A stretch of DNA of 64,000 nt from NCBI GenBank assembly GCA_012519205.1, contig JAAYQR010000011.1, positions 1 through 64,000 on the forward strand. The letters are read 5' to 3'. Position numbers and translations under genes: made by a program. Shown here piece after piece: positions 26,182 through 30,704 of this stretch. The notes beneath the pieces were generated by a model, which saw only the letters and a program-made list of their open reading frames with translations, searched no databases and was not told the origin of the DNA. Position 1 is the stretch's first letter; every line of letters starts with the position of its first letter. The stretch comes from Candidatus Epulonipiscium sp. (GTDB taxonomy: Bacteria > Bacillota > Clostridia > Lachnospirales > Defluviitaleaceae).

Positions 26182-26212
26182 AAAACCTTCGGTCTAGACC
26201 GAAGGTTTTTTT
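26181..26212. terminator. bidirectional terminator between S1 gene and secF
   Basis: A perfect GC-rich stem (AACCTTCGGTC / GACCGAAGGTT) with A-run on the left and T-run on the right serves both convergent genes. Confidence 0.88.
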
Positions 26213-27104
26213 ATGCTTGCTTTTTAACTGGTTTTTTACTAAATACATACCATAGTGGACTTGCTATAAATATAGAAGAATATGTTCCTGCAACAATTCC
26301 TATTATAAGAGGAAGGGCAAATTCTTTTATGGAAGACACCCCTAGGAAATATAACACAATTACAGTAATTGATGTTGTTACCGATGTATTGATTGAACGA
26401 ACAATACTTTGGCTAATACTCTTATTAACTAATCCTTCTAAATCCCCTCTTTTTATAACCTTCCTATTTTCACGGATTCTATCAAATATTACAATCGTAT
26501 CATTAATGGAATATCCTACAATGGTTAAAATAGCTGCAATAAAGGAATTATTAACTGGAACCCTTCCTATAGAGTATACGGTAAAGACAATTAAAACATC
26601 ATGTATTAATGGTATTACCGCTGCAAGACCGAATTTCCAATCCTTAAATCTAAAAGTAATATAAATAAGCATTAATATAGAAGCTAAAAGCAAGGCCTGC
26701 ATAGCCCTTACCTGCATTTCGGAACTAATAGTCGGAGATACGTCGGATACATTTAACAAATCATCTTTTTCATGCAAATTAAACTTATTCTTTAGAGCAT
26801 TGTATAACTCTTTTCTTGTATTTGCATCTATAGACTTTGTTTTAATAGCAACCCCCTGAGCACCTAATTTAGTAATCTGTGGATTATCTTCTCCGGTAAT
26901 TTCAACAACAATAGGCTTGATATCCTTATTAATATCAAAAGTTTGCCCAATATTTATTTCCATCACTGTTCCACCAATAAATTCCACATCAAAGTTTAAG
27001 ATTCCAACACCTCTTAATGCATTGATTGGCATTGCCAATAACCCAGCTATAATAATCACTGCTGATAATATAAACCATCTATTTCTACTTTTTATTATAT
27101 CCAT
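26211..27104 (-). CDS. secF: protein translocase subunit SecF
   Basis: Membrane protein of 297 residues with six transmembrane segments. The SecF signature FDVEFIGGTVMEINIG lies after the first segment (near 38), and YSINDTIVIFDRIRENRK (near 193) is the RND-like motif. With SecD it uses the proton or sodium motive force to aid late steps of Sec-dependent export. It is 13 bases downstream of secD and ends in the shared terminator. Here secD and secF are separate genes, unlike the fused secDF of Bacillus. Confidence 0.96.
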   Translation of the reverse strand: MDIIKSRNRWFILSAVIIIAGLLAMPINALRGVGILNFDVEFIGGTVMEINIGQTFDINKDIKPIVVEITGEDNPQITKLGAQGVAIKTKSIDANTRKELYNALKNKFNLHEKDDLLNVSDVSPTISSEMQVRAMQALLLASILMLIYITFRFKDWKFGLAAVIPLIHDVLIVFTVYSIGRVPVNNSFIAAILTIVGYSINDTIVIFDRIRENRKVIKRGDLEGLVNKSISQSIVRSINTSVTTSITVIVLYFLGVSSIKEFALPLIIGIVAGTYSSIFIASPLWYVFSKKPVKKQA

Positions 27105-27117
27105 TTCTTAGGCCTCC

Positions 27118-28344
27118 TTATTTCGCACCATATAATTTTGGATTTTTTCTTCCCAGTTCAATAAATTGTTTTAGGATAATCCTTGTTACAACTAATGATG
27201 TAAACATGGACACAAGAATTCCTATTCCTAACGTTTGTGCGAAACTTTTAATTAGCCCTGTTCCAATCCAATACAGAACAAATGCTGCTATAAGGGTTGT
27301 TATATTACCATCCAAAATTGCAGTAAATGCCTTGCTAAAACCTGAGTCAACCGCTGCCCTTAAGGTTTTCTCTGCCCTTAATTCTTCTTGGATTCTGGAG
27401 AATATTATAACATTGGCATCTACTGCCATACCAACAGAAAGAATAATCCCCGCAATACCCGGAAGGGTTAAGGTTGATTGTAATAGGCTTAGGATAATTA
27501 TTACCACTGCACAGTAAAAAATCAATGCTAAATCTGCAGCTAGTCCGGGAATCCTGTATACAATTAACATAAATAATAAAACAAGAATGATTCCTATGAT
27601 GCCGGCTTTGACACTGCTATCTAGAGCCGTTGCTCCTAGTGTCGCTCCTATATTTTCACTTTGTAATACCTCTAGCTTAAAGGGAAGAGCTCCTGCTTTT
27701 ATCCTTGCAGCCAATTCTTCTGCTTCTTCTATGGTACCTACTCCTTCTATCATAGCGGAACCTTCAGTGATAACGGAACTTACCTTTGGAGCACTGATAA
27801 TATTTTCATCAAGAGCAATCATAATGACTTGATTAAGGTATTTTCCAGTAGCTTCTGCAAAGGCTTCCTTACCTTTCGAATTAAATTCGAGGGCAACTAC
27901 TGCCTTTGTAATACCTTTATCATTAATGATTCCTTTTCTTGCATCTTTTACCTCTTTACCGGTTAGGATAACTTCTCCCTCTGGGCTTAAAAACATTAGT
28001 TGCGCTGTTGCTCCAATATCTTTTATAGCTTCTTCCGCATCTTCAACCCCAGGTATATCTACACGAAGTCTTTTTCCCCCTTCTTGGGCTACCTGCGCTT
28101 CTGTATAATTACCACGGTCTAATCTTCCTTGAATCATTGCTATTGCCGCATTCATTTCTTCTTGGGTAGGGTTGTCCTTATCGGCTTCGTATACAATATT
28201 TACTCCACCCTTTAGGTCAAGCCCCTGTCTAATATTTTGTACACCTAAAATATTGTCTTCGCCAATCCCAAAATATGCTGTCGCTGATGTTAATCCAATA
28301 AGAACGACAACCAAAAATAAAATAAATCCGCTCTTAATTTTCAT
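27118..28344 (-). CDS. secD: protein translocase subunit SecD
   Basis: Membrane protein of 408 residues. The first transmembrane segment is followed by LGLDLKGGVNIVYE-like sequence (RQGLDLKGGVNIVYEAD) near 40. A shorter periplasmic-type domain has PGVEDAEEAI. The last five segments include GMAVDANVIIFSRIQEELR, the SecD signature. The P1 domain is reduced compared with E. coli SecD, as usual in Gram-positives. AAGGGAGATAAAAAAG precedes the ATG. Operon secD-secF. Confidence 0.96.
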   Translation of the reverse strand: MKIKSGFILFLVVVLIGLTSATAYFGIGEDNILGVQNIRQGLDLKGGVNIVYEADKDNPTQEEMNAAIAMIQGRLDRGNYTEAQVAQEGGKRLRVDIPGVEDAEEAIKDIGATAQLMFLSPEGEVILTGKEVKDARKGIINDKGITKAVVALEFNSKGKEAFAEATGKYLNQVIMIALDENIISAPKVSSVITEGSAMIEGVGTIEEAEELAARIKAGALPFKLEVLQSENIGATLGATALDSSVKAGIIGIILVLLFMLIVYRIPGLAADLALIFYCAVVIIILSLLQSTLTLPGIAGIILSVGMAVDANVIIFSRIQEELRAEKTLRAAVDSGFSKAFTAILDGNITTLIAAFVLYWIGTGLIKSFAQTLGIGILVSMFTSLVVTRIILKQFIELGRKNPKLYGAK

Positions 28345-28468
28345 CTTTTTTATCTCCCTTCATACAAAATACACAAAGTTAATTATATGCTTTATACTAG
28401 GAAACGTCAATATTTTTGCATTAATATATTCTGTTTCCATGGATTCCCTAGGATATTGCAACAGTTCA

Positions 28469-28531
28469 TGTCATCCTGAACGTAAGAGGAGGATATCATA
28501 CCTTAGACTCTTTGCTGCGTTCAGAATGACA
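28469..28531. repeat. intergenic inverted repeat with GTCATCCTGAACG arms
   Basis: The arms GTCATCCTGAACG (28470-28482) and CGTTCAGAATGAC (28518-28530) flank about 35 bases. The sequence type (GTCATTCTGAAC...) is a common dispersed intergenic repeat in Clostridia. Degenerate half copies occur at about 187-212 and 4451-4475. It lies between secD and scfB. Confidence 0.6.
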
Positions 28532-28554
28532 TAAATGGCCATTGGCTGCTAAAA

Positions 28555-29907
28555 TTATTGCGCTAATTTTGCCTTGATGTATAGGGCACATTCAACTCTC
28601 TTTTTTTCCAGTTCACACCCGATTTTATAAGGTATATGTATATCTCCATGAAATTGATATGCATTGGCTGCACAGCCTCCGCTGCAATAAAACTTTGCCC
28701 AGCAATTTTTACACTCTTCCTTTGCATAGACATTGCAGGATTGGAATTTCTTTTGCATTTTAAAGTTTTCTATTCCTTCAAAAACCGTCCCCATTTTAAA
28801 TTCATCCATGCCTACGAACTGATGGCAAGGATATAAATCTCCCTCCGGTGTAACAGCTAGGTATTCAGAACCCGAGCCACAACCCGCTAATCTTTTTGCT
28901 ACACAAGGGCCCTGAGATAAATCAATCATAAAGTGAAAAAAGTTAAAAGCTTGCCCTTTCTTTTCACGATTTACCATTTCTCTAGCTAATTCTTCATATT
29001 GTTCATATAGGATAGGAAGATCTTCCTCCCTTAGGGCATAGGACATTTCACTAGATGCCACCACGGGTTCTACAGATACCTGTTTGAATCCCAAATCAGC
29101 TAGATGAAGAACATCTTTTGCAAAATCTAAATTTTCCCTTGTAAAGGTACCCCTTACATAATAATTATCTTGATTTCTACTTTCTGCAACTTTTTTAAAC
29201 TTAGGAAGTATTATGTCATAACTTCCCTTATGGTTTATGGTATATCTCATTCTATCATGGACTTCTTTTCTTCCATCAATGCTTAACACCACATTATGCA
29301 TATTTTCGTTTATATATGATTGTATATCATTATCCAGTAGAACCCCATTGGTTGTAATGGTAAAACGAAAGTTTTTATTATGTTCCTTTTCTATACCTCT
29401 ACCATATTCTACAATTTCTCTTACGACATCAAAATTCATAAGGGGTTCTCCCCCGAAAAAATCCACTTCTAGGTTACGGCGATTTTTTGAGGCGTGAACT
29501 AAATAATCAATGGCCTTCTTCCCTACTTCAGCACTCATTAAAGACCGTTGTCCTCTATATTCCCCTTCCCCTGCAAAGCAATACTTGCACCTTAAATTAC
29601 AGTCGTGGGCAATATGGAGGCAAAGAGCTTTTACTATAGGGTCCCTTTTTTGAAATTGATTCAAATAATCTACATACACATCCTCCGTATATAATAGTCC
29701 TTCTTTTTCTAATGTTTCTATTTCTTTTATAGCCTCATCAATTTGATTTAACCCATACTTTTTACCTAACAGCTTCTTAAGTTCTTCTTTTTCATGTCCT
29801 TTATATATATCAATTAAATCGTAAATTATATTATCCACCACATGGACGGCCCCACTGTATATATCTAGAACAATATTAACCCCATCCATAGAAAATTTAT
29901 GAATCAT
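28555..29907 (-). CDS. scfB: thioether cross-link-forming SCIFF peptide maturase
   Basis: Radical SAM-SPASM enzyme of 450 residues. The radical SAM cysteines are Cys103, Cys107 and Cys110 (CNLRCKYC), and FFGGEPLMNF follows. The C-terminal SPASM region holds clustered cysteines (CGSGSEY, YPCHQFVG, CKNCWAKFYCSGGCAAN) for auxiliary [4Fe-4S] clusters. It also has the N-terminal peptide-binding domain. It makes thioether bonds between Cys and Thr or other residues in the SCIFF peptide, encoded just upstream. I place the start at ATG 29907, behind GGAGTG, not at the upstream in-frame ATG at 29928. A terminator lies between the peptide gene and this gene. Confidence 0.93.
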   Translation of the reverse strand: MIHKFSMDGVNIVLDIYSGAVHVVDNIIYDLIDIYKGHEKEELKKLLGKKYGLNQIDEAIKEIETLEKEGLLYTEDVYVDYLNQFQKRDPIVKALCLHIAHDCNLRCKYCFAGEGEYRGQRSLMSAEVGKKAIDYLVHASKNRRNLEVDFFGGEPLMNFDVVREIVEYGRGIEKEHNKNFRFTITTNGVLLDNDIQSYINENMHNVVLSIDGRKEVHDRMRYTINHKGSYDIILPKFKKVAESRNQDNYYVRGTFTRENLDFAKDVLHLADLGFKQVSVEPVVASSEMSYALREEDLPILYEQYEELAREMVNREKKGQAFNFFHFMIDLSQGPCVAKRLAGCGSGSEYLAVTPEGDLYPCHQFVGMDEFKMGTVFEGIENFKMQKKFQSCNVYAKEECKNCWAKFYCSGGCAANAYQFHGDIHIPYKIGCELEKKRVECALYIKAKLAQ

Positions 29908-30050
29908 TTTATTCACTCCAATTTTCATACATAATTACAAATTATACAGTCATAAAAGATTAATAAAAAAGCTCAAAAGTGATTAAACACTCATCTTAAA
30001 CCTTGTATAATAATTGTGTTATGTATCTATTTGTTTTATAATTTGCATTT

Positions 30051-30076
30051 AAAAAGCAGTGACATAATGCCACTGC
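30051..30076 (-). terminator. terminator or attenuator between scfA and scfB
   Basis: GCAGTG-GC-ATTATG-TCACTGC-type hairpin (30056-30076) followed on the minus strand by a T-run (30055-30051). It lies seven bases after the scfA stop. Partial read-through would give much more peptide transcript than maturase transcript. Confidence 0.7.
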
Positions 30077-30082
30077 CAGCGA

Positions 30083-30223
30083 CTATTTGTTTTCACAGGA
30101 TTGATTTGCAACGGTACAAGATGTTTTACAAGCAGATTGACAAGATGTTTGACATTCTCCACAACCGCCTTTTGCCATACTTTTCTTTAATGTAGCCGTA
30201 TTCAATGTTTTTACATGCTTCAT
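30083..30223 (-). CDS. scfA: six-cysteine SCIFF ribosomal peptide precursor
   Basis: Small gene of 46 codons with a strong AAGGAGG ribosome site. The peptide begins MKHVKTLNTATLKKSMAKGG and its second half carries six cysteines: GGCGEC, TSCQSACKTSC and QSC. This fits the SCIFF (six Cys in forty-five) family exactly, which is near-universal in Clostridia and of unknown biological role. The Thr/Ser residues between the cysteines are the known partners of thioether bonds made by the radical SAM maturase encoded downstream. The upstream TIGR04086 membrane protein gene is a constant neighbour of this family. Confidence 0.93.
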   Translation of the reverse strand: MKHVKTLNTATLKKSMAKGGCGECQTSCQSACKTSCTVANQSCENK

Positions 30224-30291
30224 AGCTAAGCCTCCTTAATTTAAACTCCCATAATTATAGCATAACTTACCAATTTTGAAAAGAGTGCTGA

Positions 30292-30704
30292 TTACTTTTT
30301 AACATTGATTCCTACCATTCCCCCTAAGGCTCCTCCCCCCCTGCCATTATAAAAAGAGTTAAGGTATTTCCTGTAAGAGCTAGGTCTTTAATAATGATAC
30401 CATTTATCAAAACCAAAACTAATCCATATGCAATACCTGCACACATACCCCAAAACCACCCTCTAGATTTTGCCCCCTTAGCTGTATCATATCCAGCCAC
30501 TAGGGTTGAAATAATTGTAGTAATAATTACGATAACACGGATACTGCTTTCTGGCATAGATGTATAAGTTAAAAGCAGTGCCAGCCCGATAAAAAGAATA
30601 GCAGTAATTGCATAGGCCACTACAATTGCTTTCAAAATTCCAATAACTCGCCATTCACTTTCCTTTTTGGTTGTTTGTGTAGACCTTTTACTCATTTCCA
30701 TCAT
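30292..30704 (-). CDS. TIGR04086 family membrane protein, frame broken in a G7 tract
   Basis: Membrane protein with four hydrophobic segments, matching the TIGR04086 (YrzE-like) family found next to SCIFF genes. The uninterrupted frame stops at 30324 after LFIMAGGEEP (126 residues). If the run of seven G (minus strand; C at 30335-30341) were eight, translation would continue with GALGGMVGINVKK and stop at 30292. That gives the glycine-rich ending expected of the family. The break is therefore a one-base deletion in a homopolymer, either sequencing error, mutation or phase variation. The start ATG at 30704 follows GAGGGG. Function is unknown. Confidence 0.8.

Follow-up and report, generated by a model that had tools for sequence, protein, structure and literature searches.

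A terminator-like hairpin recurs between the SCIFF precursor gene and its maturase gene, alongside natural variation in the peptide core

Introduction

In lantibiotic operons such as nisA-nisB, a leaky terminator lies between the gene for a RiPP precursor and the gene for its maturase. SCIFF loci likewise consist of a short precursor gene, a hairpin and then a modifying enzyme, but differ from the lantibiotic operons in having a core that is nearly invariant across a bacterial class. The SCIFF peptide ScfA and its radical SAM maturase ScfB make up a standard, already known ranthipeptide system of the Clostridia (TIGR03973, TIGR03974), represented by thermocellin (CteA/CteB) and Tte1186a/Tte1186. 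Ranthipeptides are defined by a thioether that joins Cys to a non-alpha carbon. Cys32 is the published cross-link donor of the peptide. The acceptor, according to two reviews, was Thr37 in vitro and Thr34 upon co-expression in E. coli, a difference that they leave unsettled. Reviews further cite Chen et al. 2020 for a phenotype in C. beijerinckii, where disruption lowered expression of sporulation genes and raised that of agr; in the light of this work, the statement in a preliminary description of the locus that the function of the peptide is unknown is somewhat out of date.

Here we describe a SCIFF locus and its counterparts across the class. A literature search for SCIFF or ranthipeptide together with terminator or stem-loop returned no account of a promoter-scfA-hairpin-scfB layout among the matches listed, subscription papers lying mostly outside its reach. 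What is new is the comparative description of this layout, together with a set of natural variants of the peptide.

Results

The window, by which we mean the whole 64,000-nt stretch that was analyzed (contig JAAYQR010000011.1), carries on its minus strand a TIGR04086 gene, scfA, a terminator-like hairpin and scfB, in that order. The wider neighborhood reads tgt, yajC, a PHP-domain gene on the other strand, TIGR04086, scfA, scfB, secD and secF. The preliminary description had recognized the peptide, its radical SAM maturase and the TIGR04086 protein, and this assignment held: all three score above their NCBIfam cut-offs, and Pfam is concordant (SCIFF, Radical_SAM, SPASM and DUF3792). ScfA (30083-30223, minus strand; 46 aa) is assigned as the precursor by its score (TIGR03973, 85.7 bits, cut-off 50; PF13165) and by six cysteines in about 45 residues, and its leader resembles the piece of CteA in chain B of structure 5wgg (E 0.00047). 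The TIGR04086/DUF3792 membrane protein gene (30324-30704, minus strand; 126 aa; 74.7 bits, cut-off 30; PF12670) lies directly 5' of scfA.

ScfB (28555-29907, minus strand, in a reading frame that opens at 29928) adjoins scfA and is a radical SAM/SPASM maturase of the SCIFF type, predicted to form thioethers. It scores 747.9 bits with TIGR03974 (cut-off 425), matches PF04055 and PF13186, carries the CxxxCxxC motif as CNLRCKYC, and stays below the cut-off of the exception model NF040492 (not_ScfB; 610.9 against 855). The closest solved relative is 5wgg/5why; chain A of 5wgg, a structure that also contains CteA, aligns over residues 7-454 (448 residues; E 2.1e-213). Translation probably starts at the eighth codon, at 29907 (MIHKFSM...), rather than at the ATG that opens the frame, because a ribosome-binding site, GGAGTG, can be read just 5' of it (29914-29919, minus strand) and because the 5wgg alignment begins one residue before this codon. 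Peptide, maturase and core residues are those of the described ScfAB ranthipeptide system, and we saw no difference from it in the window proteins.

To the 3' side of scfB lie secD and secF (26211-28344, minus strand; TIGR01129 and TIGR00966, both over cut-off), which have a promoter-like site of their own (28410-28382, 11 of 12) and are neighbors outside the peptide system. Among 57 related loci picked by similarity, with at least 4 kb on each side, secD and secF each lie 3' of scfA in 39, a TIGR04086 gene lies 5' of it in 30 (on the opposite strand in 6) and yajC lies 5' in 16. A search of the literature for a role of the TIGR04086 neighbor found none. The PHP-domain gene between yajC and TIGR04086 (30821-31669, plus strand) encodes a relative of 3',5'-nucleoside bisphosphate phosphatase that falls under the model cut-off (227.2 of 400 bits), and a PHP gene is found on the other strand in 3 of the 57 loci. 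Between scfB and secD (28455-28540) there is a repeat with inverted ends, perhaps a small mobile palindrome; contig C2 of this genome carries two partial copies of it, separated by about 50 nt (1905-2007).

The hairpin begins 5 nt past the scfA stop codon (30055-30077, minus strand) and has 10 pairs, 5 of them G-C, and a 3-nt loop, followed by TTTTAAAT. A 39-nt piece containing it folds at -14.2 kcal/mol (z = -3.46), a value equalled by 1 of 200 shuffles, so that it combines a G+C-rich stem and a T tract beyond chance, as an intrinsic terminator does.

To ask how general this arrangement is, we assembled 135 loci, one per genome, of which 47 come from relatives of the window genome and 88 from a draw across the class; of the latter, 28 were returned by the class search and 60 were hand-chosen, non-randomly, among the matches listed for spread over families, and several are from the order to which the window belongs. 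Because every locus was detected with the TIGR03973 model, peptides too distant from that model are missing. scfB was found 3' of scfA in 125 of the 135, the other 10 having only 586-694 nt behind scfA. Promoter counts use 124 loci, 115 of them with scfB; the 11 left out, which have an unusual start codon or core and were missed by the pattern, are included in the hairpin and peptide counts. A first sample comprised 106 gaps from 110 loci, 80 of which had been selected for their resemblance to the query and two pairs of which are the same contig; it left out L017 and L054, missed by the pattern, and L022 and L069, with no scfB in reach.

The window genome has a single scfA. The gene is present in 47 of 57 relatives (this genome included) and in 250 of 293 genomes sampled from the class, and is absent from all 14 well-known control genomes. 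Among the genomes listed, it is absent from five genomes of one family (f29; 0.8-1.1 Mb) and three of another (f74); outside that listing, 23 more had no match. Loss of the SCIFF system may have occurred in the smallest genomes.

Of the 125 scfA-scfB gaps, 86 contain a T-tract hairpin whose stem energy is at most -7 kcal/mol (1.4 expected from dinucleotide shuffles), and 45 of 59 families have one. With the T tract disregarded and the limit set at -9 kcal/mol, 94 of 125 gaps have a hairpin (3.5 expected), and the first sample, with a looser threshold, gave 72 of 106 (5.5 expected). In loci picked by similarity, T-tract hairpins are rare within 110 nt 3' of scfB (7 of 73; 0.3 expected), and a piece of the scfB coding sequence of the same length has none (0 of 74); the hairpin is thus chiefly a feature of the scfA end. 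The device is not universal, since 39 of the 125 gaps have no such hairpin and 11 gaps, spread over five families, measure less than 35 nt. Family means of the T-tract score behind scfA are 2.96 in the window's order and 3.05 outside it, the HU and S20 controls coming from within the order in both comparisons; both lie below the HU mean of 4.00 (p = 0.024 and 0.005) and not significantly below the S20 mean of 3.59 (p = 0.20 and 0.39). The window itself has an intermediate score of 3.8. The shortfall relative to HU is what one would expect of a leaky terminator, and supports leakiness weakly.

A promoter-like site stands 30 nt 5' of the scfA start in the window (30254-30282, minus strand), with TTTTCA, 17 nt, TATAAT and an extended -10 TG. 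With a scan for sigma-70-type sites, 107 of 124 loci have a site scoring at least 10 within 150 nt 5' of scfA, against 16.5 expected, and among the 47 order members listed the best scfA site is of the extended -10 type in 42, as it is in the window. The same scan found a site in 28 of 30 loci for the S20 gene (4.8 expected) and in 4 of 30 for the HU gene (2.6 expected); the low HU count means that the sensitivity of the scan is uneven. Over the first 110 nt of scfB, taken as a control, it gave 11 of 115 (17.2 expected).

We propose that the hairpin is probably a leaky intrinsic terminator, a reading drawn from sequence comparison, with scfA transcribed from its own promoter, scfB reached by read-through and the peptide made in excess. 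scfA would be transcribed from a strong SigA-type promoter of its own; most transcripts would stop at the hairpin just 3' of it, and a minority would read through and carry scfB, perhaps more. The leaky terminator would keep the peptide well above its modifying enzyme, and ScfB would form a Cys-to-Thr thioether in the conserved SACKTSC core.

If the hairpin instead terminated scfA transcripts fully, scfB would need its own promoter in the gap, and the window offers a candidate: the 147-nt stretch from hairpin to scfB holds a TATAAT with a weak -35 (TTTTTA, 17 nt; 29941-29969, minus strand; 9 of 12), 33 nt 5' of the scfB start. Its -35 is poor, it is without an extended -10 and it is absent from a stricter scan; it could be a weak scfB promoter, of doubtful function. 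In the wider sample, promoter-like sites in the scfA-scfB gap are at chance (9 of 104; 7.5 expected), as they are behind the hairpin (5 of 61; 3.4 expected), and hairpin and scfB lie a median of 44 nt apart, with 49 of 87 loci under 50 nt, which leaves no room there for a whole promoter plus a ribosome-binding site. The excess of promoter-like sites before scfA and the chance level before scfB suggest that scfB usually relies on transcripts that extend through the hairpin. The scfA-scfB gap of the window, at 175 nt, is long: it is 67-78 nt in five of seven relatives from the same family and 206 and 213 nt in the others, and the short-gap relatives suggest that an scfB promoter is not needed in general. 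A separate scfB promoter behind a complete terminator is accordingly unlikely. Two loci (L005 and L011) have about 130 nt extra between hairpin and scfB compared with close relatives, with an inverted repeat inside.

Alternatively, the transcript could be cut behind scfA, with the hairpin acting as a 3' stabilizer that shields the scfA piece and the ratio being set through RNA decay. Poor T tracts in some hairpins, such as the TTATTA type in the window's order, and several strong stems without a T tract would suit such a role, but the prevalence of T-tract hairpins described above speaks for termination, and we regard stabilization as rather improbable. A regulated attenuator, in which a protein or the mature peptide would read the conserved stem and thereby control scfB, finds its support in the stem itself. 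The pattern GCAGYG...CRCTG occurs in 22 of 115 gaps, in 8 families of the window's order, and a like pattern in 34 of the 106 gaps of the first sample, with 6 same-strand matches in the rest of those loci. Among 33 aligned hairpins of one sequence type, six pairs show substitutions at both positions and pairing holds in 93% of cells, from which it follows that the hairpin acts as RNA, a point in favor of the leaky terminator; these are 33 of the 36 listed and were picked by a GCAGYG-type pattern, so their invariant columns are partly there by construction. Against attenuation, other families have different stems, an Rfam search of the hairpin found nothing, and ordinary terminators can also keep stem 7-mers. 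Among families with a hairpin, the commonest scfA stem 7-mer, AGCAGTG, is found in 5 of 14, and TCTACAC recurs in the HU terminator (L169-L198) in 5 of 10; no S20 7-mer occurs in more than 3 of 12. A site with no relation to scfA (G038) also reaches up to 38.5 bits with a model built from the scfA hairpins. The HU control and this unrelated match led us to demote a conserved regulatory RNA motif to a minor rival: since the HU stem is also conserved, we read the scfA hairpin as an old, slowly changing terminator rather than a special regulatory RNA, and an attenuator is very improbable.

We also considered whether the hairpin masks the ribosome-binding site of scfB and rejected this, as 18 nt or more separate the end of the best hairpin from the scfB start in each of the 87 loci measured.

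We then compared 147 peptides, one per genome (the 135 plus 12 more from family f9). Positions C21, C24, C28, S30, A31, K33, T34, S35 and C43 are invariant in all 147, the anchor cysteines C21, C24 and C28 being partly fixed by the alignment procedure. Several synonymous codons are used at each invariant position (124 loci), which indicates selection at the peptide level. T37 is present in 117 of 147 peptides; the rest have Gly (23), Ser (6) or Ala (1) there. The window peptide has C32, T34 and T37. Seven peptides have Ser in place of Cys32, and position 37 is Ser or Ala in each; they come from two genera of family f9, namely from both genomes of g12 and from 5 of the 6 g32 genomes in which a peptide occurs. 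These seven loci, in seven genomes (L200, L204, L279, L281, L283, L288 and L289), all have scfB 3' of scfA, and the alignment covers 415 or more of its 450 residues every time; scfB is likewise 3' of scfA in all 15 Gly37 loci first checked. The CxxxCxxC motif of ScfB is kept in all six loci checked for it, four of them Ser32 loci. Cys36 is replaced by Val, Leu or Ser in four peptides (L212 and L213 of family f24, L215 of f14 and L290 of f9), and no scfB was found within 586 nt 3' of scfA in L215.

As glycine has no bridging side chain, Thr37 cannot be required in the Gly37 lineages, and Thr34 is the better acceptor candidate. The fixation of Thr34 may have another origin, as it stays where Cys32 is lost and the flanking residues are equally fixed. 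We therefore suggest only tentatively that Thr37 may be dispensable and Thr34 essential class-wide, and that the Ser32 lineage, with Ser or Ala at position 37 and ScfB kept, may have to use another cysteine or a different bond.

Discussion

Our computations establish the gene identities in the window, the recurrent promoter-scfA-hairpin-scfB order and the lack of an excess of promoter-like sites before scfB. The preliminary description had proposed that partial termination at the hairpin gives a high peptide-to-enzyme ratio, and had named a strong independent scfB promoter as the case against it. The architecture behind this proposal recurs class-wide and agrees with what partial termination would predict, and for the sample as a whole the opposing case loses ground, gap sites being at chance; the window keeps a weak candidate site in its long gap. 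From this pattern we infer partial termination and an excess of peptide over enzyme. The thioether chemistry would, by likeness to the described systems, hold in the window organism too.

The natural variants at positions 32, 36 and 37 offer ready tests of the disputed cross-link without mutagenesis. The near-invariant SCIFF core would fit poorly with a species-specific quorum signal. A conserved leaky terminator, if that is what the hairpin is, would mean that the peptide is needed in bulk, which would favor a structural, redox or carrier role over that of a trace signal.
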